Below, in pieces: positions 6,048-18,221 of a stretch of 26,455 nucleotides of DNA. The notes under the pieces were generated by a model. The model searched no databases. It saw only the letters and a list, made by a program, of their open reading frames with translations, and had not been told where the DNA came from. How positions within the stretch are numbered: position 1 is the first letter of the stretch; every line of letters starts with the position of its first letter. This stretch comes from a virus. The stretch spans positions 1-26,455 of IMG/VR virus record IMGVR_UViG_3300042861_001224; one strand, 5' to 3'. Made by a program: the position numbers and the translations under genes.

Positions 6048-6590
6048 GTCGTCGTTCTCCGTGTCGGGATGGGGTAAATAAAAATGTTTGGTGAGGGCTG
6101 CAAGTTCGCCGGAGTCGAGGCTATCCAGGCCGTCAAGGCCTGGGGTGTTAGTCATCGTTACGTTAATGATGTCCAGCACCTCGCCTGTGCCAGCCAGATA
6201 AATAAACAGCGAGCTGATGTAGCGATATTCTTTTTTGATGATGTGTTTTTTAGCGTCTTCGGTCCAATCCACTCCAACAGCGTATAAACCCTTGCCATCG
6301 CGCCACTCCATGTCGTGGAACCAGCCTGCGGCTAAATTTTTTTGGCCGTTTTGCTCTTTGCGTAGGTTTTGATGCTCATAATCGATGAGCGTGTCGTTTT
6401 TGCGGGCACGCAATCGAGCAATCACGTTGGTTGCGATCGTGGCATCCAGCTGCCAGGCATCGGCATCTTCGGGCCGACCGTCGGTTGCGCGAAACGGACC
6501 CACCGGCAACAAATGCGCAGCACTCGGCACGGTGCCGTCGGTAGCGATTTCAAACGCGAGAGCAGCAATATTGACAGCGGGTTTGGACAT
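5586..6590 (-). CDS. I: Mu gpI-like prohead protease and scaffold
   Basis: The 334-residue product belongs to the Mu-like protease family: SKPAVNIAALAFEI at the N-terminus, LLPVGPFRATDGRP, then DYEHQNLRKEQNGQKNLAAGW, DWTEDAKKHI and YRYISSLF in the catalytic half (to about residue 165). The C-terminal half is a coiled-coil scaffold built of 14-residue repeats. The protease cleaves scaffold and itself during prohead maturation. ATG at 6590 has GAGG 5 bases upstream; the frame is open further upstream but lacks a better start. It lies directly upstream of the capsid gene. It begins its own unit here behind a palindromic promoter-like element, as at Mu promoter PI. Confidence 0.92.
   Translation of the reverse strand: MSKPAVNIAALAFEIATDGTVPSAAHLLPVGPFRATDGRPEDADAWQLDATIATNVIARLRARKNDTLIDYEHQNLRKEQNGQKNLAAGWFHDMEWRDGKGLYAVGVDWTEDAKKHIIKKEYRYISSLFIYLAGTGEVLDIINVTMTNTPGLDGLDSLDSGELAALTKHFYLPHPDTENDDMPKPEEQLAALTVERDGLNTQVAALTVERDSLKTSLAALTTERDDLKTQVAALTQAQADAAQAAEQQKHTDLLNAALTDGRLTPAQKPWAEKQSLAALTEYLEATNPLPVTQRQTGDGHTTQTAALTAEQAKIAEQMGVTAEEFLATQKKHAQ
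5883..6026 (-). repeat. 42-bp coding repeats: 14-residue coiled-coil units in the gpI/Z scaffold
   Basis: A 42-base period encodes about three and a half copies of a 14-residue unit of form [QS][VL]AALTxERDxLxT. The units alternate small/hydrophobic and charged positions, as in a parallel coiled coil. Copies differ slightly in DNA (GTC/GAC codons), so it is an older expansion rather than an exact duplication. Confidence 0.85.
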
Positions 6591-6617
6591 ATCGACCTCA
6601 AAAAATCTGTTGAGGCC

Positions 6618-6665
6618 AGTATCCGGATTTGTAAGATTTGAAACGATGCTGGAAACGTTTCCCAG
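6618..6665 (-). promoter_or_regulatory. Candidate activator-dependent late promoter upstream of I
   Basis: The palindrome GGAAACGTTTCC (6651-6662, extended to CTGG at one side and CCCAG at the other) lies 58 bases upstream of the gpI start. On the minus strand a -10-like GATACT occupies 6623-6618, 33-34 bases from the dyad centre, with no good -35 box. The same palindrome with the same spacing precedes the other late operon near 17.8 kb. Mu has a C-activated promoter at this position (PI). Binding by the Mor-like protein encoded here is inferred. Confidence 0.5.
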
Positions 6666-6729
6666 GCTGAGGTGATGCGATTGAATCTGAGGCGATTTAA
6701 GGCGCACCTTTGCAAGACTGCGCTTATGA

Positions 6730-6773
6730 CCCGTTTAAAATCTTGTGAACGTTTCTCGCGGTTTTTAAACGGG
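6730..6773. repeat. Inverted repeat CCCGTTTAAAA with AACGTT at its centre
   Basis: Perfect 11-bp arms CCCGTTTAAAA (6730-6740) and TTTTAAACGGG (6763-6773) flank a 22-base spacer whose middle contains GAACGTTTC. It could be a regulator site cluster or an end-of-early-operon structure. No protein can be assigned from sequence alone. Confidence 0.6.
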
Positions 6774-6875
6774 GTTTTGAGGGGGTTTAGCCCCGTCTCG
6801 TGGGGCCATGCCGACCACTTCGCCCAGTGTGAGTTGCACCAGGGTGGCTGCGGGTGTTTTTTGTAGCTGGCTCAC
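6765..6875 (-). CDS. Possible short ORF after mor (uncertain)
   Basis: A minus-strand frame reads through about 50 codons after the mor stop. It ends in residues such as TPAATLVQLTLGEVVGMAPRDG, which look more protein-like than a random frame. The only nearby start is a GTG at 6875 with a poor ribosome site, giving 36 residues. The same frame continues upstream antagonistically through mor, so it may be a shadow or the tail of a decayed gene. Confidence 0.2.
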   Translation of the reverse strand: MSQLQKTPAATLVQLTLGEVVGMAPRDGAKPPQNPV

Positions 6876-6916
6876 CGCCCGCTGGAGCCGTTGCCGCCGA
6901 GCGGCTCTTGTTTGGG

Positions 6917-7318
6917 TTAATCGAATAAGTCCATCTGCGTGCCGGTATCGGCCATGCTGCGAATGTTGGTAATTTGTCGGCTGCTGAGGTTGTACACGCG
7001 CGCTTGCTGGGCAATGCTTTCGCGATAGGCATTGATGATGATGGCGTGATTGCGATGCACGGCCAGCAGCTTGTCGGCTTTGGGGCAGGTAAAACGGTTG
7101 CTGGCGTCCAGGTGTGGCGCTAACGTCACGCGCAGGCGGGCCAGCTCGTCTGGATTGAGTCCGAGGGTTTTGGATTTGCGTTGAGGTAGATGGATATTGA
7201 CGCCGCCGTGATCGCGCAGCCACTCTTGAGCGCGGGCAAAACCTAGCGCTTTGACCACCGCCCGCAGGACGGGCGGCAGGGTGGCTAACAGTTCGGGGGC
7301 GACGTCGGGAAAGTCCAT
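6917..7318 (-). CDS. mor: Mor/C-family transcription activator
   Basis: The 133-residue protein resembles Mu Mor and C, dimeric activators that switch on middle or late phage transcription. It has the N-terminal helical dimerisation part (ELLATLPPVLRAVVKALGFARAQEWLRDHGG), the connecting strand NIHLPQR (residues 41-47) and a C-terminal helix-turn-helix (about 90-123: IINAYRESIAQQARVYNLSSRQITNI). It is the last early gene and starts 2 bases after the GemA stop, as in Mu-like phages. The ribosome site is weak, suggesting reinitiation. No second Mor/C protein is seen in the window, so it may do both jobs; likely targets are the shared palindromes near 6656 and 17798. Confidence 0.85.
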   Translation of the reverse strand: MDFPDVAPELLATLPPVLRAVVKALGFARAQEWLRDHGGVNIHLPQRKSKTLGLNPDELARLRVTLAPHLDASNRFTCPKADKLLAVHRNHAIIINAYRESIAQQARVYNLSSRQITNIRSMADTGTQMDLFD

Positions 7319-7320
7319 TT

Positions 7321-7785
7321 TTATCGTGCCATCCAGGCTTTAAGTGCTTCGATAATCGCCTGACCTTCTTCAGTGGTCAGGCTGTCCAGGTCGGGGACGT
7401 TATGCGCGGTTTGACGGGCACAAAACGCCAGCAAAGCCTGACGGGTAGCGTTGTTGACTTTACCCGCCTGACCCAGCTTGCCCCACAGTTTAACGATGTG
7501 GCCGATTTGTGGCGATACGACTTTTGGACGGCTTGACGCGCCATTGTTGGCTGTGCTTTGGTGAGTTTTCCGCCGTTGCCAGCCGCGCAACGCATAATCG
7601 GCTAGCACGTTTGACAACTGCGGCATATTGAGGGTTTTGGCGCTAACCCGGCCATTTTGCTCAATCGCACCATGCCGCACCAATAGCATCCGGTGCATGT
7701 CATCATCCCAGCCGGGCAGGTGTTTCTCTGCCCAGCTTTTAGCAATGCCGACCTGCTGCAGGTAGTGTTTGACCAGGTCGCTCAT
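7321..7785 (-). CDS. gemA: GemA/gp16-like protein
   Basis: The 154-residue protein matches the phage Mu gp16 (GemA) family: DDMHRMLLVRHG in the first half, then the basic linker, then IGHIVKLWGKLGQAGKVNNATRQALLAFCARQT and a C-terminal IIEALKAWMAR. In Mu GemA modulates host gene expression and DNA topology; the mechanism is not well settled. It sits just before mor, its usual place, and overlaps the upstream small gene by ATGA. Confidence 0.88.
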   Translation of the reverse strand: MSDLVKHYLQQVGIAKSWAEKHLPGWDDDMHRMLLVRHGAIEQNGRVSAKTLNMPQLSNVLADYALRGWQRRKTHQSTANNGASSRPKVVSPQIGHIVKLWGKLGQAGKVNNATRQALLAFCARQTAHNVPDLDSLTTEEGQAIIEALKAWMAR

Positions 7786-7973
7786 GATCCAAACTCATCA
7801 TGCAACTCGGCGTCCAACTCATCGGCCTCGTTTTCGTAACGGGCCGCCAGGCGCATGTCCTCGTCGTAGGCTAGGCGGCTGTCTGATCTTAGGGCTGACT
7901 CGCGGACATTGCGGGCGCGTTCTCGCAATTCTCTAACCCGCTCTTGTTGTGCGGCACGTTCTATAGTCGTCAT
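7782..7973 (-). CDS. Small charged helical protein, hypothetical
   Basis: This 63-residue protein is rich in Arg, Glu, Asp and Ala (ERVRELRERARNVRESALRSDSRLAYDEDMRLAARYENEADELDAEL) and is probably one long helix or coiled coil. It lies between gam and gemA, overlapping gam by TGATG and gemA by ATGA. ATG at 7973 has GGAGG 7 bases upstream. No function is recognised; the context says early lytic expression. Confidence 0.7.
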   Translation of the reverse strand: MTTIERAAQQERVRELRERARNVRESALRSDSRLAYDEDMRLAARYENEADELDAELHDEFGS

Positions 7974-8482
7974 CACACCACCTCCTGTTCAAACGGGACG
8001 ACGGCGAAATCTTCCAGGCCGCTGTTGATAGTGATGCCTACAATGCCGGATACGGCTTTAGGATCGGCCAAAATAGCTTCTTTGTTGATTTCATCCTTAC
8101 TGCGGATAAATCGACTCAGTCCCAAGTTGCGCAATGTTTCGATAACCTTATCCGCTGCACGGATGCCCACACTATTGGGACGTATCCGCCAGGACACTTC
8201 GCCTGTAATCAGGTTGGCGGTTTTGCTGCCGTTTTTGCACAGCTCGCCGCGGTTTGCTTCACACCAGGTTTGAATGCCGTTTACCAGCGTTTCACAGCGG
8301 GTTTTAAGCGATTCGATTTCAGTTTTGCGGGCGCTGGTGATTTCAGCAATCGCATCGTTCATCTCGGTTTCGATGCGCGTTAAGTGGCGCTGCACGTCAC
8401 CCAGGATGCGGATGGCTTCCATGGTTTCGTCTTTGGTCTGGCAGCTATACGCCGCTGCCGGGGCTTTATGTTTCTTGGCCAT
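7973..8482 (-). CDS. gam: Mu Gam-like DNA-end-protecting protein
   Basis: The 169-residue product matches Mu Gam (174 residues), a dimeric Ku-like protein that binds double-stranded ends and blocks host exonucleases. Visible marks are the long central coiled coil (residues ~25-85, IEMEMNDAIAEITSARKTEIESLKTR-like), NLITGEVSWRIRPNSV around 103-118, and the C-terminal IRSKDEINKEAILADPKAV. AGGAG lies 5 bases before the ATG. It is followed at once by the small gene and gemA, a normal Mu early order. A REPIN-like element separates it from the gene upstream. Confidence 0.92.
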   Translation of the reverse strand: MAKKHKAPAAAYSCQTKDETMEAIRILGDVQRHLTRIETEMNDAIAEITSARKTEIESLKTRCETLVNGIQTWCEANRGELCKNGSKTANLITGEVSWRIRPNSVGIRAADKVIETLRNLGLSRFIRSKDEINKEAILADPKAVSGIVGITINSGLEDFAVVPFEQEVV

Positions 8483-8504
8483 GTTGGCTCCTGTGTTGGT
8501 TTTT

Positions 8505-8559
8505 GTAGGGTACGCATGGCGTACCTTTAGGCTTGTCCGGTACGCGATGCGTACCCTAC
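8505..8559. repeat. REPIN-like inverted pair of GTAGGGTACGC elements
   Basis: Two 21-base arms (8505-8525 and 8539-8559) form an inverted repeat with a single mismatch around a 13-base spacer. Each arm is itself palindromic around GGTACGC/GCGTACC. The outer 13 bases, GTAGGGTACGCAT and ATGCGTACCCTAC, are exact complements. This is the form of a REP doublet mobilised by RAYT-type transposases. Its right arm supplies the final Ser codon and TAG stop of the 184-residue gene. Confidence 0.8.
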
Positions 8560-9110
8560 GAGGTGTCAGGCGGCTTCAATGGGTCTTTCCATCCCGCAGG
8601 TGGCTTGGACTTGGTTTTCTTCTGCGCGGTATCCACCAAGTCCGCCATCGACACCGGCGCGCCGCCGACATTGCTGCGGTTGCGGGCCTGCTCGATCTTG
8701 TCTTGTTCCTGCTTGCGTGCTGCTGCCTCGCCGCGACCGGCGATCATGCTCAGCAGATAGCCGTTGCTTTTTAATGGCAGCACTAAAGTTTCCGGGCGGT
8801 TGACGACCAGCTTCATCATTTCCGCTTCCCAGATCCCTTGGGGCGCTGAGTAGGCGATGCCGTTGCGTTTGATCTGCGCGGCTTTAATCAGCGGCATCAA
8901 CTCCTTAGTCAATGCCAGTCGGCGGCTCCAGCGCAGCTCTTGTTTGGTGGGTTTAAACAGCTCCAGATAACGCAACAGCGCACCCACCAACCCAACCGGC
9001 AAATCACTCAGCAGCGCAGTCCATTCGTTGCCCGCCAGCATTTCCATCGCCTGCACTACGTCGATGTCTTTGGCGCAATACGGGCAAGGGATGGTGCAAG
9101 CGTTGCTCAC
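8556..9110 (-). CDS. Mu-like early protein with N-terminal CPYC motif, hypothetical
   Basis: The 184-residue protein starts at a GTG whose bases overlap the previous stop (GTGA). It has a CPYC pair near residue 9, suggesting half of a metal site. A helical region follows: NEWTALLSDLPVGLVGALLRYLELFKP (residues ~25-50), LTKELMPLIKAAQIKRNGIAYSAP, then a segment on which a DNA-binding role can be imagined (WEAEMMKLVVNRP). The C-terminus is polar and basic (QKKTKSKPPAGWKD). It is not recognised as a named family. The last codon and stop lie in the REPIN, so the C-terminus may be altered by that insertion. Confidence 0.7.
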   Translation of the reverse strand: MSNACTIPCPYCAKDIDVVQAMEMLAGNEWTALLSDLPVGLVGALLRYLELFKPTKQELRWSRRLALTKELMPLIKAAQIKRNGIAYSAPQGIWEAEMMKLVVNRPETLVLPLKSNGYLLSMIAGRGEAAARKQEQDKIEQARNRSNVGGAPVSMADLVDTAQKKTKSKPPAGWKDPLKPPDTS

Positions 9111-9349
9111 AGACGGCACTCCAAACCGGCGACATGCACTAACGGCACATGGGTTAACTGATACGCCACCATGGCCAGACCTACGCACGCAACCAGTAGC
9201 GCGATACGAGTCCCCACCAGCTCCCAGGTCAACCGGTCGATTTCGTTGTACTGCTGTTCGATCAATTTGCCATTGCCGTCCAGGCGGGTCGACAGGTCAT
9301 TGATACGGTGGGTTTTTAAGGTATCGATAATGCGTTCAACTGTTTTCAT
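9107..9349 (-). CDS. Small membrane protein, hypothetical
   Basis: This ~80-residue protein has an N-terminal amphipathic helix (KTVERIIDTLKTHRINDLSTRLDGNGKLIEQQYNEIDRL) and one transmembrane segment (ELVGTRIALLVACVGLAMVAYQL). Such small coiled-coil and membrane proteins are frequent in phage early regions, but no function can be named. Two adjacent ATGs overlap the upstream stop; 9349 gives GGAG at 7 bases and 9352 is an alternative. Confidence 0.6.
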   Translation of the reverse strand: MKTVERIIDTLKTHRINDLSTRLDGNGKLIEQQYNEIDRLTWELVGTRIALLVACVGLAMVAYQLTHVPLVHVAGLECRL

Positions 9350-9540
9350 CATTCGTCTCCATCACGGATGGCCCAATCGGAGGCCACGCGGGTTTTTGTG
9401 GTTACAGGCTTTGTCATCCGGGCCAATATTTTTTTTATCTGCCTTTGGTCGCGTTGCGGCTGCGGGGCGTAATCCCCGCGCAAAAACGGCCCGACCAGCG
9501 GCGATAAGGTTTTAACGGGTTTGTTGCGGCTGTATCGCAT
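9349..9540 (-). CDS. Small basic protein, hypothetical
   Basis: The 63-residue product is basic and proline-containing (RYSRNKPVKTLSPLVGPFLRGDYAPQPQRDQRQIKKILARM) with an acidic last few residues. ATG at 9540 is chosen because it is preceded by GAGGCGGCC and begins 7 bases after the upstream stop; the frame is open further but would overlap that gene heavily. No family is recognised. Confidence 0.6.
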   Translation of the reverse strand: MRYSRNKPVKTLSPLVGPFLRGDYAPQPQRDQRQIKKILARMTKPVTTKTRVASDWAIRDGDE

Positions 9541-9547
9541 GGCCGCC

Positions 9548-9748
9548 TCAATGCCGTAGGGCAGACGTGTTGATGATCGAAACCGCTTTATCCACGCCAT
9601 GCGCGGCCAGATACTCATTCAATGTGTCAATCAAAAAAGAGCCCATGGCATAAGCCACGGTTTTGTCATCACTGGGGTGGCGCATGTCGTGGGCTTTAAC
9701 CACCACGCCCTTGCCGTTGTCTTCGATGCTGATTAAAAAGGTGCTCAT
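9548..9748 (-). CDS. Small early protein, hypothetical
   Basis: The 66-residue protein (start overlapping the previous stop as ATGA) has a beta-hairpin-like first part (FLISIEDNGKGVVVKAHDMRH) and a helix (TVAYAMGSFLIDTLNEYLAAHG). It is not recognised. Position between B and gam places it among non-essential early genes that tend to vary between Mu-like phages. Confidence 0.65.
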   Translation of the reverse strand: MSTFLISIEDNGKGVVVKAHDMRHPSDDKTVAYAMGSFLIDTLNEYLAAHGVDKAVSIINTSALRH

Positions 9749-9966
9749 AGTGCTGTCTCCAGTTCGGGTCCGGCGGGCATCTCTGCCCAGTGGGTGACTG
9801 CGCCGTAGGGGTGTTGGTCGCCCATCACGTCATAAAAATTATGCTGATTGAAATAACCCAGCCAGACCGGCTCATTTAGCGTGGGGTGGTACAGCAGTAC
9901 CGTCATTTCGTCGTCGGGTAACGACTCGTTGACGTCTAGCCATTCAATGCCTTCCATTACGATCAT
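9745..9966 (-). CDS. DUF551-like small protein
   Basis: The 73-residue product shows the DUF551 pattern: WLDVNESLPDDEMTVLLYHP, a WLGYF strand, then VTHWAEMPAGP near the C-terminus. DUF551 proteins are small phage- and prophage-associated proteins of unknown function. The start has AGGGGG 6 bases upstream and lies 9 bases after the B stop; the stop overlaps the next start. Confidence 0.75.
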   Translation of the reverse strand: MIVMEGIEWLDVNESLPDDEMTVLLYHPTLNEPVWLGYFNQHNFYDVMGDQHPYGAVTHWAEMPAGPELETAL

Positions 9967-9975
9967 GGCAGCCCC

Positions 9976-10914
9976 CTACGCAATGGATTGCAGGCACAAC
10001 GCCTGTTTGGCCACAGCATCCACCAGCGCCACTGTCAACTCGCGGCCGTTTCTAAACTGGGTAATCGCCGCAACCAATCCCTCGATCAACATCCGCGCGC
10101 TGCCCTTGCTGTAGGCATGCAACCTGGCTTTGACGTCATCGCTAATTTCCTCTTCACCAAACGCTGCCTGCACGAGTGCGGCGGCGTCGTCTTTGGTGAT
10201 GGCTTTAACCGTTTCCGGCCAAAAGCCGGTGCGGCTGCGGATCTGGTCAAACTGGCCTCGCTCGGGGCGTATCAGGCCGGTTAACTGTTCGGTGCCGCAA
10301 AGCACAATGCCAATGTTGGCTAAGTCGCGCAGGCGGCGCAGGGTGTGTAAAACGTGCGGTGTCAGCGTGTCCGCTTCATCAACAATCAACAGGCTGTCGG
10401 TGTTGCGCAAGCTATCGACGATGGACCTAAACTTGTCATCAATACTGCCCTTACCTTCGTAACCCGCCACGGTGCGCGCCAATAGTTTGATGAGGCTTTG
10501 CACAGTCATGGTGGGCGTGGCTTCTACCAAATAGGTGTTGGGCGTGGTGCGTTGGTAATGTTTGGCTGCAAAGGTTTTTCCGGTGCCGACATACGCCGAC
10601 ACCACCGCAAAATTCCGATAGCGCCGCGCCATTTGAAAGGCTGTATTCGCCAGGCGAAAAACGCTGGTTTCCACTGGCGCCACCACATCAGCGGCGGTAT
10701 CGTCGGCGTGCTTCATGGCGCTGGCGATTTTGACTAACAACACGCCAGGGGGTGTGGCATACGTGCCGCCGAGGATTTGACTCAGGCTGGCCGGTGATAT
10801 GCGCGCCAACCGAGCCAGCGCGGCTTGTTTGTAATTGCGTTCGGTCATCCAGATCTTGATCTCATCGACCAACTGGATGTCCTCCGGGGTGTAATGTTCT
10901 GGGTAGGTGCTCAC
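9976..10914 (-). CDS. B: Mu B-like AAA+ ATPase, transposition target selector
   Basis: The 312-residue protein equals Mu B in length. It starts at a GTG with GAGG 5 bases upstream, immediately after the A stop. The N-terminal helix-turn-helix (about residues 26-50, KQAALARLARISPASLSQIL) is followed by an AAA+ core with Walker A VGTGKT (109-114) and Walker B LLIVDEAD (175-182), then the C-terminal domain. Mu B forms ATP-dependent filaments on target DNA, recruits the A transpososome and gives target immunity. All core motifs are present, so the protein should be active. Confidence 0.95.
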   Translation of the reverse strand: MSTYPEHYTPEDIQLVDEIKIWMTERNYKQAALARLARISPASLSQILGGTYATPPGVLLVKIASAMKHADDTAADVVAPVETSVFRLANTAFQMARRYRNFAVVSAYVGTGKTFAAKHYQRTTPNTYLVEATPTMTVQSLIKLLARTVAGYEGKGSIDDKFRSIVDSLRNTDSLLIVDEADTLTPHVLHTLRRLRDLANIGIVLCGTEQLTGLIRPERGQFDQIRSRTGFWPETVKAITKDDAAALVQAAFGEEEISDDVKARLHAYSKGSARMLIEGLVAAITQFRNGRELTVALVDAVAKQALCLQSIA

Positions 10915-10921
10915 GGGTTCC

Positions 10922-12601
10922 TCACTCAAAGTTAAAAATATCGATATCAATTTCGGGTTCTGGCAGCGTGGGTGTGCTGTCCAGCAGGGTTTGTGCATCG
11001 CTGGCGACGGCGTCGGCGTCGATCACTAAACCAGCACGGGCTTTTAGTTCGTCCAGCTTGCGTTGTTGGCGCTTGGTGGCGTCTTCCAATGCTTTGGCGC
11101 GGTTGTCTTCCATAAACGAGTCGCTGACGTTGCCTATTTTTTCCACCAATGTGGCTTCGCAAATAAACTCGCCTTTCAAAGTGCGAATATCGGCGGTTTT
11201 GTCATTCAGGATGTCAACTTCCACTAACACCGCTTGTCCGTTCCAGGCATGCAAATCAGTGTGCAAGTAACGCCGGTTGTTGATCTGCACAGCAGCTTTA
11301 CTGACAATCCGTTTCTCGCTGGGTCTGGCTATTTGCCGTGCCGAGGCATGCGGCTTGATCGGTTGCAGTTGCGACCACACTGACCAATGGGTTTGGGTCT
11401 TATCTTCCGGATGCTTATCGTGGTGGTATTCCTCCAACCAAACGTCATAAGCCGCCACAAACTCAGCCAATGACGGCGGCGTTAAACGACCGTTTTTGCA
11501 ATCGTTGGTGGTTTTGTTCAAAACCTCCGCCGCCATGTCGGTCCCGCAGTAAAACTCAGGACGCCAAAGCTTCAAGAAACGGTCTTTAACTGTCCTGTGA
11601 AAGCGCTCCACATGACCTTTACCACGTGGGTTATGCGGTATGGAATGAATCACTTCCTGCACACCAGCCCGCCGGTAATAACCGCCAAGCTCATCATCAG
11701 CCAGCTTATTTTTGTAACCGGAACCGTTATCCACATACAGGATCGGCGGCACATGGTCCCAGCGCTCGAAGATTTCCGCCCAGCCGATCATTACGTCATA
11801 ACTGCCTTCGTTGGCCATGATGCGATAGCCCACCAACACCCGGCTTTTCAGGTCAATCACATGCATGATTTCAGGCCGCCAAATGTCGCCAGTGACGGGG
11901 TGAGCCAGATACACGTCGGCCCGATAGCCATCCGCCATGTAAATATCACCCGGCAACAGGTTAGCCGTGCAACGGACCACATACTTGGCTTGGGTCTGCT
12001 TGTACAAATCCCGCCCAATCCGCGCCGGTGACATCTGTCCCAACGTGGCAGGCAACGCCCGCAGGTAATAGCGCACCTGATCAAACGAACAGCTATGCCC
12101 GTAACGGTTGACCAAGGCCCGATGCACCGCCGATATATCCGGCTTGCTGGGCTGGCTGTAGAGTTCCAGCGCCAAGCCTTCCCAGCCGCCTTCTTGCCGG
12201 ACTTTGCCTTTGTGCTGTTTGATCAAGCCATCCAGACCATGATCACGGTACGCCGCGATTTTTTCGAATACCGTGGTTCTGGATGGCATGGTTTTTTTAC
12301 CTACCGCGATAGCCTCCAAAAAGCCCAGCATTTTTGGGTCCAAGTCGCTGTCTTTGGCTCGTGCCATAAACAAATCCACCGCCGTCGTGAGGGAGCCGCG
12401 CACGCCTTTGATAGCATCGATTGCCCAAATCACTTGTTCCCAATTCAGCGCGTCTTGTTGCTTAGACTTGGCCGCTTTTTCAAACTCAGACTTCTGATGA
12501 AGGTTGAGTTGAATCACCTCGGCGCGTGTCGCGGCGCGCGGCAGCTGGCTATCACCCGGCGTTTTCATGACCGTGTTCCGTGGAAAGGGTTGCGCGGACA
12601 T
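10922..12601 (-). CDS. A: Mu A-like DDE transposase
   Basis: The 559-residue protein carries the DDE catalytic triad: Asp224 in MADGYRAD, Asp291 in YVDNGSGYKNK and Glu332 in GKGHVERFHRT. The D-D spacing of 67 is the same as in Mu A (D269, D336). Upstream are helix-turn-helix regions for end binding (residues ~50-190). Downstream is the Mu-type C-terminal beta-barrel (about 400-490) and a basic/acidic tail for contact with B and host ClpX. It is shorter than Mu A (663 residues), mainly at the N-terminus, so an Ibeta-like enhancer domain seems absent. ATG at 12601 lies 5 bases after the previous stop; a second ATG at codon 12 is possible. Confidence 0.95.
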   Translation of the reverse strand: MSAQPFPRNTVMKTPGDSQLPRAATRAEVIQLNLHQKSEFEKAAKSKQQDALNWEQVIWAIDAIKGVRGSLTTAVDLFMARAKDSDLDPKMLGFLEAIAVGKKTMPSRTTVFEKIAAYRDHGLDGLIKQHKGKVRQEGGWEGLALELYSQPSKPDISAVHRALVNRYGHSCSFDQVRYYLRALPATLGQMSPARIGRDLYKQTQAKYVVRCTANLLPGDIYMADGYRADVYLAHPVTGDIWRPEIMHVIDLKSRVLVGYRIMANEGSYDVMIGWAEIFERWDHVPPILYVDNGSGYKNKLADDELGGYYRRAGVQEVIHSIPHNPRGKGHVERFHRTVKDRFLKLWRPEFYCGTDMAAEVLNKTTNDCKNGRLTPPSLAEFVAAYDVWLEEYHHDKHPEDKTQTHWSVWSQLQPIKPHASARQIARPSEKRIVSKAAVQINNRRYLHTDLHAWNGQAVLVEVDILNDKTADIRTLKGEFICEATLVEKIGNVSDSFMEDNRAKALEDATKRQQRKLDELKARAGLVIDADAVASDAQTLLDSTPTLPEPEIDIDIFNFE

Positions 12602-12606
12602 GGCTG

Positions 12607-13035
12607 CTACCCATTAAGGCCGACGGTGCGTTGGCGAAGTAGCGCTTCACGATGCGCCAATGATTGACGCAAGTAATCAGCACGTATTTCCTGATGTCCA
12701 ATCACAGTTAGCCCATCCAAGATGAAGACATCAACACCATCGCTGGCGTATTCTGCGCACTCGTCATCGCTAATGAACAATAAAATACATTCACCAAAGA
12801 GCGCTGGATGCACCCATGTGGGATCAAAAGAGGCGGCTAAGCGACAGCCAATAACCAAATGCGCACGCTTACCAAGGCCAGTTGCTACCTTGCGCCAATC
12901 GACCTCGTTAAAGCGCTTTTCATGAGACGCTTTTTCGCGCTCTGACATGGCATCGCCGACGCACCCCACCAAATACGCCTCGATGATGCGCATATCGATG
13001 GACTCGTCACACACACCGCTAATCTGCCTATACAT
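12607..13035 (-). CDS. Early-region hypothetical protein
   Basis: This 142-residue product starts at an ATG with GGAGG 5 bases upstream that overlaps the DUF3102-like gene stop. It has a mixed alpha/beta look (HLVIGCRLAASFD, ECILLFISDDECAEYASDGVDVFILDGLTVIG), with alternating hydrophobic strands that could form a small Rossmann-like fold. No family is recognised. It is coupled between a DUF3102-like gene and the transposase gene, so it is expressed early. Confidence 0.65.
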   Translation of the reverse strand: MYRQISGVCDESIDMRIIEAYLVGCVGDAMSEREKASHEKRFNEVDWRKVATGLGKRAHLVIGCRLAASFDPTWVHPALFGECILLFISDDECAEYASDGVDVFILDGLTVIGHQEIRADYLRQSLAHREALLRQRTVGLNG

Positions 13036-14140
13036 CCTCGCCTCCTTTTTTATTGCTGCTACCTTTCTTACGGCCTGGCCCTGGACGTTCAGCCGAGCGC
13101 TCAATGTCGCGCTTGTTTTTGGCACGGGTAAAGTTAATGTCGATCATGGTTACACTGTCTTGCAAACGCGCCTTTTCGTCGTCTCGCAACAGGTAATTGG
13201 CATTGGTTTTGATTGGCAATAAATCGCCAAGATCGTCTTTAATACGGGCATACAGCAATTCGGCGCGCGCCAGTAAACCGCCCGCCGCAATGGCGATAGC
13301 ATGCAGTTGCAATTCGCGCTCTTGATGGCTGGTTTCGGAATCGTTGATCACTTCGCCGTAGATCACATCCAGCGCATCGACGTTGACGCGACTGGCATAC
13401 TCCAACGCCGCCGCTTCATGGCGTACTTCCACCGTGCGGGCGTTGTAGATACCCTCACCGGGTTGTTTGGCTTTGGTCAGGTTGTTGTGTTCGCGGCGCA
13501 GGGTTTCATGCTGTTGCCTCAGTATTTTGTACTCGGCTTCCTGTTGTCGGATGGTATCGCGCAAGTCCCGGACGCTCAGCGATTTCAGCTCGTTATCAGG
13601 ATCTTCCAACAGATCCTGAACTACCTCAGGATCGGCAGCAGCAAGCGCCCTGAGCTTTGTTTTGCTGAGCATAAATACTTGTTTGCGCTTTTCGGGATCA
13701 AGGCTGGTGTAAAATTTTGCGGTCAGCATCAAGTCAGACGCCGTTTGCTGCGTTACGCCATGCGCCTTCAGCAGTTTCAAAAACTCGCCGCGCTCACACT
13801 CGGCCTTGGCTTTCAGCATCAAATAGCCCGCTTCCAGCACTAACGCCGCCGCCGTGTTTTGTGCCGCCACCGCCCGCTCAACACAAGCCGCCACCGAACC
13901 CGCCAACGATATACCCAACCCAGCAGCAACCGACTCATCTGCAGAATCAAGCGACCCCGTTGAAAGTACGGAACGTTCCGTACTTTGGTTAATGGGCGAA
14001 ATGTCAGAACGTTCCGCACTTTGAATTATTGGCGTCATCGCCTGCATATCGGCATCGATATTGACCAGCTCACCGTCAATAAATGTGCGGACGGGGGGTA
14101 GTTCGTCGTCCATATCCAATTCAAAATCTATTTCAGACAT
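13028..14140 (-). CDS. DUF3102-like early protein with coiled coil
   Basis: The 370-residue protein has an acidic N-terminus, a 12-residue tandem repeat near residues 35-60 (QS[AT]ERS), and a DUF3102-like helical domain around 80-180 (AALVLEAGYLMLKAKAECERGEFLKLLKAHGV, then a helix-turn-helix-like QTASDLMLTAKFY). A coiled coil follows at ~210-245 (EAEYKILRQQHETLRREHNNL), and the C-terminus is highly basic (ERPGPGRKKGSSNKKGG). DUF3102 proteins occur in phages and plasmids and are thought to bind DNA. ATG at 14140 has GGAG at 6 bases and overlaps the previous stop; upstream in-frame ATGs lie inside that gene. Confidence 0.65.
   Translation of the reverse strand: MSEIDFELDMDDELPPVRTFIDGELVNIDADMQAMTPIIQSAERSDISPINQSTERSVLSTGSLDSADESVAAGLGISLAGSVAACVERAVAAQNTAAALVLEAGYLMLKAKAECERGEFLKLLKAHGVTQQTASDLMLTAKFYTSLDPEKRKQVFMLSKTKLRALAAADPEVVQDLLEDPDNELKSLSVRDLRDTIRQQEAEYKILRQQHETLRREHNNLTKAKQPGEGIYNARTVEVRHEAAALEYASRVNVDALDVIYGEVINDSETSHQERELQLHAIAIAAGGLLARAELLYARIKDDLGDLLPIKTNANYLLRDDEKARLQDSVTMIDINFTRAKNKRDIERSAERPGPGRKKGSSNKKGGEDV
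13963..13986. repeat. 24-bp perfect palindrome inside the DUF3102-like gene, with a degenerate second copy
   Basis: The half-site AAAGTACGGAAC is followed directly by its exact complement. A second copy centred at 14010/14011 keeps the right half at 11 of 12 positions (GTTCCGCACTTT) but has lost the left. The centres are 36 bases apart, matching a 12-residue protein repeat, so coding duplication explains the spacing; the perfect symmetry of one copy is not explained by that alone. Confidence 0.7.
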
Positions 14141-14510
14141 GACGAACTCCCGTGATGACAAATCCAACGTCGACACCAATTTCATACGCTGCCTTCAAGA
14201 ATTTAGCGGTCGGCGTGGTAGTGTTTAATTCCCACATCATGACTGCTCTCTTTGTTACGCCGATTTTTCTACCGAGCTTTGTCTGGCTATATCCAAGCCT
14301 GTTTCGCTCTTCTTTTAACCTGTTTCCGATTGATGAAATATCCCGGCGAGAACGCTTTTTTTCTTGCTGTGACGTTAACAACTTTGGCGATTCAAGAACC
14401 GTTGAGAGCATTTGTAATGCAGATACTGGTTGCACTTTGGCGACAGGCATCACTGTTATTCCGCCGATGTCAATGCCACGATCCTTAATTATGGTGTCAT
14501 TAATGTTCAT
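14133..14510 (-). CDS. XRE-family helix-turn-helix regulator
   Basis: The 125-residue protein has an N-terminal ~60-residue segment of unknown role and a C-terminal XRE/Cro-type helix-turn-helix (IGNRLKEERNRLGYSQTKLGRKIGVTKRAVMMWELNTTTPTAKFLKAA, about residues 62-110). It occupies the place of a Ner/Cro-like early regulator upstream of the transposase. AGGA lies 8 bases before the ATG at 14510; longer in-frame starts would overlap the preceding gene. The stop overlaps the DUF3102-like start. Confidence 0.8.
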   Translation of the reverse strand: MNINDTIIKDRGIDIGGITVMPVAKVQPVSALQMLSTVLESPKLLTSQQEKKRSRRDISSIGNRLKEERNRLGYSQTKLGRKIGVTKRAVMMWELNTTTPTAKFLKAAYEIGVDVGFVITGVRHV

Positions 14511-14544
14511 GTATAATTTCCTATGCAGTTGTGGTAATTGGGCG

Positions 14545-14733
14545 TTATTGCGCTTTTGGAACAGGCTTAACGCCCAATGCTTTGGCGGCTTTGAATGATT
14601 TCCCGCGTAACGCTGGGGAGCGACCATTGAGAATTCGATACACCAAGTCACGCGGGTATCCATTCTGGTCTGCCCATTGGCCTGGGCATTCGCCGTTATC
14701 GGTAAACTGTTGTTTTCGTTCAGCAGGGGTCAT
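14545..14733 (-). CDS. BcepMu gp16-family DNA-binding protein
   Basis: The 62-residue protein matches the small phage-associated family typified by BcepMu gp16: TPAERKQQFTDNG, then WADQNGYPRDLVYRILNGRSPALRGKSFKAAKALGVK. The pattern is a compact helix-turn-helix in which WADxNGYPxxLVYRxLNG forms the recognition part. It is the first early gene, divergent from the repressor, where a Ner/Cro-like role is usual. AAGGAG lies 6 bases upstream of the ATG. Confidence 0.8.
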   Translation of the reverse strand: MTPAERKQQFTDNGECPGQWADQNGYPRDLVYRILNGRSPALRGKSFKAAKALGVKPVPKAQ

Positions 14734-14763
14734 GTTTGGCTCCTTTTATTGATTTTGTGAAAT

Positions 14764-14797
14764 GGTATTTAAAATACCGTGATGTAATTAAAATACT
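14764..14797. promoter_or_regulatory. Two operator-like dyads between repressor and early operon
   Basis: GGTATTT-A-AAATACC (14764-14778) is a perfect 15-base odd palindrome. About 20 bases away (centre near 14791) a related imperfect dyad GTAATTAAAATAC repeats the TTAAAATAC half. One covers the expected early transcription start and the other the -10 box. Spacing of about two helical turns suits cooperative dimers of the CI-like repressor; identity of the binder is inferred. Confidence 0.65.
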
Positions 14798-14815
14798 ATT
14801 AGCAAAGACTGTCAA
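14787..14815 (-). promoter_or_regulatory. Early promoter PE
   Basis: Reading leftward, a perfect -35 TTGACA (14815-14810) is followed after 17 bases by the -10-like TTTAAT (14792-14787), which drives the early/transposition operon beginning at 14733. The predicted start near 14780 lies between two operator-like sequences, so repression by the divergent CI-like protein is direct and simple. Confidence 0.75.
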
Positions 14816-14824
14816 GGGGGATAT

Positions 14825-15202
14825 GTGAATTTATTTGACGAAGCCATGCTGAGGCTCAAACAACAACTAAAAGTTACGGAAGATAAGGAAGCGGCAGATT
14901 TTTTAGGGCTATCGCCAAGAGCTTTAGCTGGGAGAAAACAACGGGAAAGCTTTCCGACCAAAGAAGTCTTTGCGCTGGCTGCGCAACGTCCAGAGCTAGG
15001 TCTTGATCCTGATTGGATTGTGACTGGCACAACGATCAGGACAGAGATTGACGATAGACAAGTAGCGTATTTAGTACAGTGCTATCAAATCATGAGTCCG
15101 CATGATAGAAAGGCCATGCTAAAGATTGCTGGCGCGCTATCGGATGTCGCCAACTTACCTAGCGAAGAAATCACCAGAAGGCTAAGCAACTACCAAACTT
15201 AA
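14825..15202 (+). CDS. CI-like phage repressor, short form
   Basis: The 125-residue protein carries a phage CI-repressor helix-turn-helix (residues ~15-65: DKEAADFLGLSPRALAGRKQRESFPTKEVFALA, then LDPDWIVTG) and a short C-terminal helical part, but no S24 autocleavage domain. It should therefore not be induced by RecA-driven self-cleavage. It starts at a GTG preceded by AAGGGGG, divergent from the early operon across two dyad operators, the standard place for the lysogeny repressor. Three further genes follow within 10 bases or with overlap, so they are likely expressed from the lysogen. Confidence 0.82.
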   Translation: MNLFDEAMLRLKQQLKVTEDKEAADFLGLSPRALAGRKQRESFPTKEVFALAAQRPELGLDPDWIVTGTTIRTEIDDRQVAYLVQCYQIMSPHDRKAMLKIAGALSDVANLPSEEITRRLSNYQT

Positions 15203-15212
15203 GGATAAAAGG

Positions 15213-15551
15213 ATGAAACAAGAGAAACAAAGCAAAGAAAAAAGCCTGCCTTTAGCAATCGGCTTAAATGTTGTGCTGCCCGGATTGGGCTATATGTACA
15301 TGGGAAAATGGATAATCGGTATCGCAGGCTGTTTGCTAATTATGGCGATTTCTTGGAATGCCTTTCTTTCAGGCGGCGATGTTTTAACAACTTGGCTGAT
15401 TGTCAATCTCATCATGGCTATCGACATGTTGATTCTGATGAATAAAAACAAAGCAAAAATAATCGCTAACGAAATGAAGAAATGTCCAGCTTGCGCAGAG
15501 CTTATTAAAAAAGAAGCCGTGGTTTGCCGATTCTGTAATCGAGAAGTATGA
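15213..15551 (+). CDS. Membrane protein with TM2-like hairpin and C-terminal zinc ribbon
   Basis: The 112-residue protein has two or three hydrophobic segments (LPLAIGLNVVLPGLGYMYMG, WIIGIAGCLLIMAI, WLIVNLIMAIDMLILM) with a TM2-like PGLGYxYxGK turn. A cytoplasmic zinc ribbon CPAC-x10-CRFC follows at residues ~91-108. Function is unknown. It starts 10 bases after the repressor stop and its stop overlaps the nuclease start by four bases (ATGA), so it is in the lysogenically expressed operon. A membrane sensor or superinfection-exclusion role would be speculation. Confidence 0.75.
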   Translation: MKQEKQSKEKSLPLAIGLNVVLPGLGYMYMGKWIIGIAGCLLIMAISWNAFLSGGDVLTTWLIVNLIMAIDMLILMNKNKAKIIANEMKKCPACAELIKKEAVVCRFCNREV

Positions 15552-16036
15552 AGCTAAAAATGAAAAGGATTTTCCTAATTTTGCTTTTAATATCCGCAAT
15601 AACCTATGCAGGCGAATGGACTGGAACGGTTATCGGCATCACTGACGGCGATACAGCCACAGTGCTGAATGCTGAAAACCAATCGATTAAAGTTCGCCTG
15701 GTCGAAATCGATGCGCCTGAATCCAAGCAAGCATTCGGCAATCGAGCCAAACAATCACTAGCTGAGCTGTGTTTTAAAAAGCCGGTGGTCGTGATGGATA
15801 AAGGCCATGACCGCTATAAGCGCACTTTGGGTCGTTTGATTTGTGATGGTGTTGACGCCAATGCCGAACAAGTTAAACGCGGCATGGCCTGGGCATATCG
15901 GAAATATCTTAAAGACTCTTCAATCCTAGATTTGGAAACCCTGGCCAAAAATGGCCAAGTAGGCCTATGGGCTGACATCAATCCAACCCCGCCTTGGGAA
16001 TTTAGGCACCCTCACAAACCTTTAAATCAGGAGTAA
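15548..16036 (+). CDS. Secreted staphylococcal-nuclease-like (SNase/thermonuclease) protein
   Basis: The 162-residue protein begins with a signal peptide (KRIFLILLLISAITYAGEW, cleavage near residue 21) and then a full SNase-like fold. All catalytic counterparts of S. aureus nuclease are visible: Asp35 in TDGDT, Arg50, Asp55 and Glu58 in RLVEIDAPE, and Arg92 in YKRTLGR. It should be an active Ca-dependent nuclease outside the cytoplasm (periplasm or medium). It is coupled to the membrane zinc-ribbon gene and followed 3 bases later by a small secreted Cys-rich gene. It is not part of the core Mu gene set, so it looks like lysogenic-conversion cargo. Confidence 0.9.
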   Translation: MKLKMKRIFLILLLISAITYAGEWTGTVIGITDGDTATVLNAENQSIKVRLVEIDAPESKQAFGNRAKQSLAELCFKKPVVVMDKGHDRYKRTLGRLICDGVDANAEQVKRGMAWAYRKYLKDSSILDLETLAKNGQVGLWADINPTPPWEFRHPHKPLNQE

Positions 16037-16039
16037 ACC

Positions 16040-16225
16040 ATGCAAGTCATTTTCAAAGCTCTAGTCACTGCAATCATGGTAATGGTCTGTATTTCATCGA
16101 CAGCAGAAGCCAAAGGCAAACAGCCTTGTTCCGGCAAAAAAGGCGGTATCTCGCATTGTTCTGGCGGAAAATTTGTATGTAACGATGGCTCGATAAGCAA
16201 GTCTAAGAAGACTTGCTCAAAATGA
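16040..16225 (+). CDS. Small secreted cysteine-rich protein
   Basis: The 61-residue product has a signal peptide ending near residue 24 (VCISSTAEA) and a basic mature part of ~37 residues with four Cys in [23 protein letters not shown] and a final TCSK, which could form two disulfides. It lies 3 bases after the nuclease gene with CAGGAG upstream of the ATG, so the two are made together and exported together. A partner, inhibitor or stabiliser of the nuclease is possible; nothing in the sequence decides. Confidence 0.75.
16196..16217. terminator. Hairpin at the end of the repressor-nuclease operon
   Basis: AGCAAGTCT and AGACTTGCT pair perfectly over 9 bp with a 4-base loop, overlapping the last codons of the Cys-rich gene. 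The operon converges here on the gpG paralogue. No U-run follows the stem directly; an AT-rich ATCTTT/AAAGAT hairpin 35 bases on could complete termination. Confidence 0.4.
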
Positions 16226-16272
16226 AGTTTGCAAATTAAGTCGGTTGGTAATCTTTTTTAAAGATATTAATT

Positions 16273-16866
16273 TTATTTAGCTCTGGCACGTTTTAAGACC
16301 CGCGTCAGATGATCTGTTGCGATGGTTTCAACCAAGTCGCGGTCGGCATCTGGGAAGCCAATCAACTCACGCTTGGGTAATCCAGGATGATTGACACGTT
16401 TTGTCACAATTCCTGCAAATGCTAAGGCTTGACGTTGACGCGGCGTAATCAGATGCGGAGCTGTTCCGAATTGGTGAAACCCGGCCAGTTTACTTTCGCG
16501 AGACCCATCGAACCATAGCCGCAACTCATCGCCATTTACCTGATAGGTTAACGAGCTCAACATGTCGCCTGTATCGCGTAATATGCCACCGGCGCGCACC
16601 CTTCTGACGGTGGCTAAGCTCATTGACTTATTTTTTCGGAATGATTCTTTTTGTTTCTTCCAAACCTTTGCACCAATGGTCAATGGCGATAAGGTTTTCC
16701 ATGGTGAGCCATCGGGGGCGAGATTCGCTTTATGTCGTTTCCTATTGGCGCGTAATAGCATTTCTCCGATGCTATCCAACATCTTGTCCGGTTGCTCAAT
16801 CTCGCCTCGTGCGGCACGTAATGTATAAAGCAAATGACTGGTGTCAAATTCAAGTTCGAATTGCAT
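16273..16866 (-). CDS. Mu gpG-like virion morphogenesis protein, paralogue 1
   Basis: The 197-residue protein matches the phage virion morphogenesis (Mu gpG) family: IGEMLLRANRKRHKANLAPDGSPW near residues 30-53, LRDTGDMLSSLTYQV, GFHQFGT, then ITPRQRQALAF and HPGLPKRELIGFPDADRDLV. It is related to the protein at 25660 but has a ~40-residue extra segment in the middle, so it is a diverged paralogue rather than a recent copy. Unlike other gpG genes it lies in the leftward SSB operon, 154 bases downstream of ssb. AGGAG lies 7 bases before the ATG. Confidence 0.85.
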   Translation of the reverse strand: MQFELEFDTSHLLYTLRAARGEIEQPDKMLDSIGEMLLRANRKRHKANLAPDGSPWKTLSPLTIGAKVWKKQKESFRKNKSMSLATVRRVRAGGILRDTGDMLSSLTYQVNGDELRLWFDGSRESKLAGFHQFGTAPHLITPRQRQALAFAGIVTKRVNHPGLPKRELIGFPDADRDLVETIATDHLTRVLKRARAK

Positions 16867-17020
16867 GGGTTACTCCTAATAGCGAGTAAAAAAAATCTTA
16901 ATGATCCAGCTGGTATTTCATCTAATAGAATGTGGAGTACGAGCGGGCTTGTCCGTATAAAACATCGCCGCAAACATAGTTGACAGCAAGCCTTTGATAA
17001 ATTCCCACTGAGTTAATATC

Positions 17021-17419
17021 TTAATATGGCACATCATCGTCATAATCATCACCCACCGGCCCACTAGCCGCCGTTTGCCCGGCGCCGTTACTTTTCCCAG
17101 TCAACATATGCATTTCACTTACGATGATTTCAGTGGTATAGCGTTCCACGCCGTCTCTATCCTGCCATTTACGCGTCTTCAAACGGCCTTCAACGTAGAT
17201 TTGATGACCCTTTTTAACGTATTCGATCAGCACTTTCGCCAGGCCGGAAAAGAACACTACCCGGTGCCATTCTGTATCCTCTTTGCGTTCTCCGCTTTCG
17301 CGATCTTTCCAGCGTCGAGTCGTCGCCAGGGTGATGCTGGCCGTGGGTGTGCCGTCAGGTAAGTAGCGTACAACAGGATCATCACCCAGGCGGCCGATGA
17401 GTTGGGCTTTGTTTAGCAT
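17021..17419 (-). CDS. ssb: Single-stranded DNA-binding protein
   Basis: The 132-residue protein is a clear bacterial-type SSB: MLNKAQLIGRLGDDPVVRYLPDG at the start, EDTEWHRVVFFSGLAKVLIEYVKKG and IYVEGRLKTRKWQDRDG in the OB-fold, and an acidic tip DDDVPY close to the canonical DDDIPF that recruits repair and replication proteins. The Gly-rich linker is short. ATG at 17419 has AAGGA upstream and overlaps the stop of the 46-residue membrane gene. Mu itself depends on host SSB, so a phage copy is notable; it might bias recruitment of host replication factors after transposition. Confidence 0.93.
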   Translation of the reverse strand: MLNKAQLIGRLGDDPVVRYLPDGTPTASITLATTRRWKDRESGERKEDTEWHRVVFFSGLAKVLIEYVKKGHQIYVEGRLKTRKWQDRDGVERYTTEIIVSEMHMLTGKSNGAGQTAASGPVGDDYDDDVPY

Positions 17420-17553
17420 GAGACATCCTTGCGGGTAAACACCCGACGTTTTAAAAAGGGTATTAAGCGATGGCCGTCCAGGATGATAAAAAGCACTAAG
17501 CCCACTATCAATGCACTGCCACAAAACAGCGGCCTATCTAAAAACTCTCTCAT
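17414..17553 (-). CDS. 46-residue single-pass membrane peptide
   Basis: An ATG at 17553 overlapping the previous stop (ATGA), with AGGGA 7 bases upstream, opens a 46-codon frame. Its product begins MREFLDRPLF, has a membrane segment (CGSALIVGLVLFIILDG) and ends basic (FLKRRVFTRKDVSC). The stop overlaps the ssb start. Tight overlap on both sides and a good ribosome site argue that it is real despite its size. No function is known. Confidence 0.7.
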
Positions 17554-17738
17554 CGTTTTTCCCTGGGTGGTGGACTATCCGCGATCGGCAAGCGCAGCAT
17601 GGCCCGCCAAACCCGGTTAAATTGTTGTAAATCGGCTGACACGGCCTGCCACTGCTGTTCCGTGCGGCCTTGGCTCAAATAAAACGCTTTGATGCGCTGG
17701 TAAGTTCGCGCTACATTGTGTTGCCAATACTGACTCAT
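17550..17738 (-). CDS. Small helical protein, hypothetical
   Basis: This 62-residue protein is predicted helical (ARTYQRIKAFYLSQGRTEQQWQAVSADLQQFNRVWRAML) with a proline- and lysine-rich end. It is the first gene of the leftward operon that contains the membrane peptide, ssb and gpG paralogue 1, and begins ~53 bases from the shared palindrome. It is not recognised. Confidence 0.6.
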   Translation of the reverse strand: MSQYWQHNVARTYQRIKAFYLSQGRTEQQWQAVSADLQQFNRVWRAMLRLPIADSPPPREKR

Positions 17739-17790
17739 TCACCCTCCGCACCGGTCAACACTCTATTCGTCTCTTATCTCACTGTCCGCG

Positions 17791-17837
17791 CTGGAAACGT
17801 TTCCAGCCTCATCAAACCTCGCGCGCGCGCGTAATCT
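17791..17837 (+). promoter_or_regulatory. Candidate activator-dependent lysis/late promoter (Plys equivalent)
   Basis: A perfect 16-bp palindrome CTGGAAACGTTTCCAG (17791-17806) lies 70 bases upstream of the holin start. The -10-like TAATCT at 17832-17837 is 33-34 bases from the dyad centre, the same spacing as at the gpI element, and no -35 box is evident. Predicted dyad centre at about -45 is close to where Mor/C proteins bind in Mu. A (CG)6 tract (17820-17831) lies between dyad and -10 box. Confidence 0.5.
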
Positions 17838-17876
17838 GCAGCCTGTGTTTTGAATTAATTTTTTGTGGGGATTGTG

Positions 17877-18221
17877 ATGACGAAATTACCAAGATTGTTT
17901 GTTTGGCTAGCCATTGGGCTATGGTTGTTTTTTCTGATTGGGATAGCCTACCCGGCTCAAATCGGCGTGGCGGTGTTTAAAGTGGCGCTGTTGGCAGTGG
18001 CGGGTTATTTGGGCTATTGGCTGGATCGGTCGCTGTTTCCGTATGCCAGGCCGGACGGTTATTTAGCCGAAACCAAACATAAACGCTATTACAACGACCC
18101 CAAAGAGCATGCTGCCGATTTCAAGGTTAACGAGGGTTATCACCAGGTGTTTTGTTCGGCGATGATTCGACGAGCCATTATTGTCGGTTGCGCCATGTTG
18201 GCTGTTGGGTTGGGGGCGTAA
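17877..18221 (+). CDS. Putative holin
   Basis: The 114-residue membrane protein has an N-terminal segment (LFVWLAIGLWLFFLIGIAY), a second (IGVAVFKVALLAVAGYLGYWL) followed by DRSLFPYARPDG, and a C-terminal one (AIIVGCAMLAVGLGA). This LGYWLDRxLFPYARPD pattern is that of a putative holin family in Mu-like and related prophages; the product would permeabilise the inner membrane. ATG at 17877 has GTGGGG 6 bases upstream and is preferred over an upstream GTG. It begins the rightward late operon and overlaps the transglycosylase gene (TAATG). Confidence 0.75.
   Translation: MTKLPRLFVWLAIGLWLFFLIGIAYPAQIGVAVFKVALLAVAGYLGYWLDRSLFPYARPDGYLAETKHKRYYNDPKEHAADFKVNEGYHQVFCSAMIRRAIIVGCAMLAVGLGA

Follow-up and report, generated by a model that had tools for sequence, protein, structure and literature searches.

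The 26,455-base IMG/VR virus record IMGVR_UViG_3300042861_001224, analysed over its whole length and referred to below as the window, is a portion of a Mu-like phage in which two palindromes, one before gpI and one before a holin gene, each lie at a fixed distance from a -10 hexamer. These dyads, spaced 33.5 bp from the hexamer, would form a Mu-like late switch; the observation holds up, and comparison with relatives strengthens it beyond what the window shows by itself. Judged from sequence comparison, the palindromes are very probably the late operators of a regulon that depends on one activator, a Mor-family protein, which would both bind and activate them.

In the proposed switch, the Mor/C-family protein (6917-7318) would be made from the early operon, and its dimer would bind GGAAAYRTTTCC, centred about 45.5 bp upstream of the transcription start. 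The bound protein would substitute for the absent -35 element, recruiting sigma-70 polymerase to a weak -10. Four promoters of the intact phage (those of the holin gene, gpI, the tape-measure gene and a gp47-type baseplate gene) would fire together, so that both divergent late arms would be turned on by one protein, without the second activator, C, of Mu. A one-step switch is proposed because a single strong member of PHROG 836 was found.

Palindromes and -10 hexamers in the window

The exact sequence GGAAACGTTTCC has only two copies in the window, at 6651-6662 before gpI and at 17793-17804 before the holin gene. Both members of the pair in the original prediction are therefore present, although the holin-side palindrome is longer (18 bp, 17790-17807) than the 16 bp given there. 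The gpI-side palindrome is perfect over 12 bp, and its CTGG/CCAG flanks are offset by one base. The elements are as follows.

17790-17807, predicted late operator at the holin promoter Phol: GCTGGAAACGTTTCCAGC, an 18-bp perfect palindrome, conserved before the holin gene in relatives
17832-17837, plus strand, -10 hexamer TAATCT of Phol: 27 nt past the 12-mer, predicted start near 17844
6651-6662, predicted late operator at the gpI promoter PI: GGAAACGTTTCC, conserved between mor and gpI in relatives
6618-6623, minus strand, -10 hexamer GATACT of PI: 27 nt past the 12-mer, predicted start near 6611
17760-17765, minus strand, TAGAGT: mirrors the Phol hexamer at 27 nt on the other side of the palindrome and might be a reverse -10 (speculative)

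Both hexamers begin 27 nt after the 12-mer, that is, 33.5 bp from the dyad centre, in agreement with the 33-34 bases originally predicted. The missing -35 was likewise borne out by a check that covered the two promoters of the window: neither 6400-6900 nor 17500-18000 yielded a sigma-70-type site having a -35.

In dinucleotide shuffles of the window, GGAAACGTTTCC occurred on average 0.004 times per shuffle and never twice (0/1000), and GGAAAYRTTTCC occurred twice in 1/1000 shuffles. Exact repetition of any 12-bp perfect palindrome was seen in 30/1000. As this word-agnostic test reaches only about 3% on the window, proof has to come from the relatives.

Conservation of four promoter positions

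Relatives were collected with the holin as query, giving 32 loci, and with Mor as query, giving one locus. Eight of them are long, at 31-44 kb (G001, G003, G004, G006, G007, G015, G020 and G028), and all eight have the split late layout. Each carries sites before the holin gene, between mor and gpI, before the tape-measure gene (promoter P3) and before the gp47-type baseplate gene (promoter P4). The original prediction had proposed looking for the palindrome ahead of other late genes, and P3 and P4 are two such further positions. In G001 the gene downstream of P3 belongs to PHROG 794 (tape measure), while P4 lies in the last codons of the baseplate-wedge (gp46-type) gene before the gp47-type gene (PHROG 180 and PHROG 6 in G001).

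The 32 sites of the eight relatives comprise 26 exact copies of GGAAAYRTTTCC and six of GGAAACGTTTCA, with one mismatch. The centre bases of the operator vary (CG, TG, CA, TA) and the arms are invariant. No exact GGAAAYRTTTCC was found outside the four late positions in these genomes; two one-mismatch YR sites elsewhere (G015 30614 and G028 11100) lack a hexamer on either side. Together with the two window sites and one from the fragment G002, all 35 sites have, exactly 27 nt past the 12-mer, a hexamer with A at its second and T at its sixth position (A2/T6).

A wider sample was obtained with an alignment of nine Mor proteins as query, which gave 13 bacterial-genome loci and 37 viral-contig loci; three cut loci (L106, L131 and L138) were set aside from these 50, leaving 47. 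A site with at most one mismatch, chosen regardless of the hexamer, follows mor in 42 of the 47 uncut loci, and A2/T6 is present at 27 nt in 42/42 of these sites. Removal of sites at least 80% identical reduced 104 sites to a non-redundant set of 72, of which 68 are exact and four are GGAAACGTTTCA. These are distributed as 28 PI, 23 tape-measure, 17 holin and four gp47-type sites, the Phol and P3 classes in the Mor loci being set by position and strand and not by the downstream gene. All 72 have the A2/T6 hexamer 27 nt downstream. For the pooled set, the -10 score averages 3.88 bits at offset 27; the second-highest of the 60 offsets reaches only -3.06. Most columns of the spacer vary freely, while A2 and T6 are fixed.

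In the reverse direction, A2/T6 at 27 nt occurs in only 6/72 sites of separately built non-redundant sets, which makes the sites directional. These six comprise 4/19 Phol, 1/28 PI, 1/21 P3 and 0/4 P4 sites. G001 also has a mirror -10-like hexamer, TAAAGT, at its holin palindrome. The idea of Phol as a bidirectional promoter stays speculation.

In a blind scan of IMG/VR for the operator plus the hexamer at 27 nt, at least 119 loci were evaluated, some of them from records of the query proteins. Among the matches listed, 66 of 123 distinct sites lie at most 500 nt before one of the four late genes on the same strand (gp47 22, gpI 20, tape measure 14, holin 10). A control scan with a 20-nt spacing placed 0/77 sites before these genes. 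The other 57/123 sites listed are not before the four genes, and 43/123 are in loci without a Mu-like gene and are either chance or unexplained. Separately, L215, L238 and L241, which are more distant Mu-like contigs, have 27-nt-spaced sites beside gp26-type head genes, perhaps reflecting another promoter layout.

The candidate activator and its genomic setting

Gene names in the window were assigned by matches to Mu-type families plus recall. The early block (transposase, MuB, GemA and Mor) reads leftwards into a late arm headed by gpI, which extends to the tail tube near the left end of the window. The second late arm (holin, endolysin, gp26-28, portal, F and G) reads rightwards from 17.9 kb; the late arms are therefore divergent. 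The window has no match to the tape-measure and gp46-48 proteins of the relatives, and it is therefore a fragment. The genes around the two promoters are the following.

6917-7318, minus strand, candidate Mor/C-family activator of 133 aa: the only match to the family found in the record (PHROG 836, E 1.9e-14)
7321-7785, minus strand, GemA (Mu gp16) gene: immediately upstream of mor, an order shared with KS10 (PF06252, E 2.1e-18)
5586-6593, minus strand, gpI protease/scaffold: first gene of the leftward head-tail operon (PF10123, E 8.1e-70)
17877-18221, plus strand, holin: first gene of the rightward lysis-head operon (PF13272, E 8.5e-33)
18221-18850, plus strand, SLT-domain endolysin of the holin operon (PF01464, E 1.3e-15)

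The family profile match of the Mor-like protein to PHROG 836 extends over residues 12-132, and the Mor profile also matches Mu C chains in PDB (E 0.0023 and 0.0031). The fold of the family combines an N-terminal dimer domain with a C-terminal helix-turn-helix (HTH); the predicted structure of the protein has a pLDDT (predicted local distance difference test) score of 83.7 and in VIA scores Z 6.5 against Mor 1rr7, on a par with TrpR and DeoR. The alignment of Mor proteins, cut from 36 sequences to 35 by leaving out L104, has the invariant or nearly invariant residues L111, R114, N118 and I119 in the HTH part. In L104 (9980-10420, a Hydrogenophilales metagenome-assembled genome, MAG), an in-frame stop lies in the Mor-like gene a few codons ahead of where the protein usually ends.

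The window and the eight relatives each gave one strong match to PHROG 836, the late-activator family, and Mu, which served as the positive control, gave two (Mor and C); none of the nine showed a second Mor/C-family gene with a comparable PHROG 836 score. Co-regulation of the late operons by a single Mor/C-like protein, as originally predicted, is thus strongly supported by the sites of the relatives and by this one strong match, with Mor as the probable binder.

Four phages with distant Mor proteins have palindromes of other types: three copies of CGGAACCCGTTCCG in G030, three of a CGGAA-N4-TTCCG type in G018, and CCGAAG-type palindromes in two copies in G022 and three in G023. In all four the hexamer is 1 bp nearer, at 32.5 bp, and one palindrome is placed no more than about 300 nt ahead of the holin match; G030 and G018 have another copy before gpI. 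This is consistent with a binder that changes along with Mor.

A de novo palindrome finder, run without a shuffle control, did not recover the four sites of Mu, which are too degenerate. The palindromes obtained with it in G013, G016, G011, G017, G024, G027 and G029 were judged to be chance and were not used.

Comparison with phage Mu

The Mu C operator has the consensus TTAT-N6-ATAA, and in Mu the mor gene is placed after gp16/gemA. The late hexamers of Mu (TAGACT, CAAACT, TATCCT and TAAGAT), read by eye from the aligned annotated promoters, all have A2/T6. When the five annotated Mu promoters were searched for dyads automatically, the known late dyads did not come out on top. C acts at the lys, I, P and mom promoters (PMC4461284), and the Mor dimer binds at Pm to a dyad centred at -43.5 that overlaps the -35 (PMC4287176).

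The system described here resembles the C regulon in having a dyad upstream of the -10 at several late promoters, a candidate activator of the Mor/C family, predicted control of both the lysis and the I operons, and four promoters of which one is inside a gene (PP in Mu_43 in Mu, P4 here). It differs in that one strong Mor/C match is present instead of the Mor-then-C pair (the window itself being a fragment), that the third and fourth promoters precede the tape-measure and gp47-type genes and not P and mom, and that the late genes are in two divergent arms. With Mor at Pm it shares a dyad that a dimer would occupy and a mor gene after gp16/gemA; unlike in Mu, the protein at the Mor position is proposed to act directly on the late operons.

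The parallel originally drawn to the Mu promoters PI and Plys therefore holds for the two operons concerned, the I and lysis operons, but not for the operator or the spacing, and P3 and P4 are off the positions of PP and Pmom. As far as the sequences allow a judgement, the system appears to work like the late regulon of Mu, although its operator sequence, spacing and cascade are not those of the C regulon.

Alternative explanations

Another phage protein, such as a CI-like repressor or a Ner-like or CII-like HTH protein, could bind the palindromes and silence the late genes in the lysogen, and several HTH proteins are indeed encoded at 14133-15202 in the window. This is improbable. In a search limited to the window's own proteins, its CI-like and Ner-like proteins were each matched in 1/8 relatives, as opposed to Mor and gp16 in 8/8. 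A repressor bound to the site, which stops 27 nt short of the -10, would not block the polymerase directly, and no -35 is seen; the confinement of exact GGAAAYRTTTCC to the four late positions in the relatives is a further argument against such a repressor.

The original prediction named a host regulator of the LacI family as its main alternative; such a protein (Cra, PurR or similar) would tie late expression to host metabolism. The core AAACGTTT resembles LacI-family operators, two of the six host genomes encode LacI proteins (8 and 5 PF00356 matches), and GAAACGTTTC occurs in a paper on E. coli Cra (PMC11157272). However, no PF00356 match was found in the other four of these six lysogen genomes, which include both Methylomonas isolates; all six are drafts or MAGs of unstated completeness. 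The hosts contain 3-7 exact copies of GGAAAYRTTTCC per genome, 27 in all, and 17 of these are at most 15 kb from mor or on its contig (M. koyamae 4/5, Methylomonas WSC-7 4/7, Ferrigenium 4/5, Hydrogenophilales MAG 3/4, Herbaspirillum 1/3 and Ralstonia 1/3). Five of the ten copies away from mor were inspected: four have no hexamer at 27 nt, and the fifth, on Ralstonia contig C51, has the hexamer CACAAT and may be a detached P4. A site upstream of a promoter lacking a -35 also suits an activator better than a repressor. With PF00356 unmatched in four of six hosts and the copies mostly near mor, a LacI-type common binder is very unlikely.

That the motif is due to chance, a fossil of shared descent or a codon constraint, with a coincidental spacing, might be argued from the palindromes repeated in shuffles of the window and from the P4 copy within a gene, but is scarcely credible given that the centre bases vary around fixed arms, that the spacer is mostly free with A2/T6 in 72/72, and that the shifted-spacing control gave 0/77 as against 66/123 among the matches listed at 27 nt.

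Several observations weigh against a regulon governed by Mor alone. Five of the 47 uncut Mor loci failed the filter of at most one mismatch, and the degenerate copies in them (1-3 mismatches, A2/T6) were picked afterwards by spacing and are thus weaker evidence. P4 lies within codons of the gp46-type gene, so that part of its conservation may be coding, and its four sites have a second positive offset (1.54 at 42 versus 4.08 at 27). The relatives may carry repressors unrelated to the CI-like and Ner-like proteins of the window. The Mor-like protein has no Pfam match at E 1e-3; Mu C ranks first in Foldseek, though weakly (E 0.18), and its weak VIA match (Z 7.0 over 52 residues) is tied with those to TrpR (6.6) and DeoR (6.5). 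Second, weak PHROG 836 matches are present in G004 (15.6 bits, a fragment) and G030 (12.7 bits), and at E 0.01 the family is matched in 7/14 control genomes as well; 'single activator' accordingly denotes one strong match. An apparent change of the palindrome along with Mor was seen in four outgroup phages only, and the palindrome finder gave three-member clusters in G016 and G027, both judged to be chance. The operator, GGAAAYRTTTCC here versus TTAT-N6-ATAA at Pmom, is not that of Mu, and the dyad-to-hexamer distance of 33.5 bp (72/72) is about 2 bp greater than the 31.5 bp at Pmom, read by eye from the aligned promoters. With these points taken into account, late operators under a single Mor-family activator are still very probable.

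Other transposable phages and distribution

Prophages of this group were seen in genomes of Methylomonas, Ferrigenium, Gallionella and betaproteobacteria. A tblastn search with Mor at E 1e-5 gave no match among 50,697 named phages. The nearest named phages are of the D3112 type from Pseudomonas, both by terminase (48.6-49.7%, best 20 of 196) and by gpI (32.7-33.2%, best 20 of 183). No GGAAAYRTTTCC was found in D3112 or KS10. D3112 has an unsplit Mu-like gene order, unlike the window, and TGAACCCCTTCC lies 25 nt before CAGGAT at its lysis side (one match).

The cultured Burkholderia phage KS10 shares the split layout, with a single annotated Mor directly before the protease (PMC2628397). In KS10, TGAAANNNTTCA (TGAAA-N3-TTCA) precedes the holin gene, the protease gene and gp44, followed each time by an A2/T6 hexamer (3/5 matches listed; the two further ones, with offsets 26 and 27, were not used). 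Its spacing is 25 nt (31.5 bp) as against 27 nt here, and its operator letters are different. The annotated start of the KS10 protease (L283, NC_011216) at 18120 is upstream of the putative late site at 18127; a start near 18177 (381 aa) agrees better with the promoter.

It is possible, and is put forward tentatively, that in transposable phages other than Mu a single Mor ortholog activates all late operons via a GAA-N4-TTC-type operator, that the letters and the spacing (31.5, 32.5 or 33.5 bp) have co-evolved with the HTH of Mor by clade, and that the Mor-then-C cascade of Mu is a derived duplication.

No paper on the exact GGAAACGTTTCC was found, many subscription papers being outside the search. 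Among the matches listed, none was by its title on phage late promoters in the searches with GGAAACGTTTCC variants and GAAACGTTTC, and no title on Mu-like late promoters describes this operator.

Other features of the window

A 24-bp perfect palindrome, AAAGTACGGAACGTTCCGTACTTT, at 13963-13986 lies next to the HTH genes where the early region starts and is a candidate early operator. Two gpG-type paralogs are encoded, one at 16273-16866 (minus strand, near the repressor region) and one at 25660-26127 (closing the head operon); of the two, the former is more similar to the gpG match that scores best in G001 (61% vs 48%). The open reading frame at 15548-16036, examined by eye in the list of such frames, codes for a nuclease-like protein with an apparent signal peptide; it adjoins the CI-like gene and is possibly a cargo gene.

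Implications

The sites provide a precise, sequence-level definition of the late promoter for a Mu-like group without a close named relative in the collection searched, from which late operons and gene starts can be predicted from sequence. The shared operator would explain how two divergent late arms are kept in step. With several activators, each having its own predicted operator and spacing, the evolution of specificity in the Mor/C family becomes testable. If the tentative scheme of clade-wise co-evolution is true, these phages would offer a natural set of orthogonal activator-promoter pairs.

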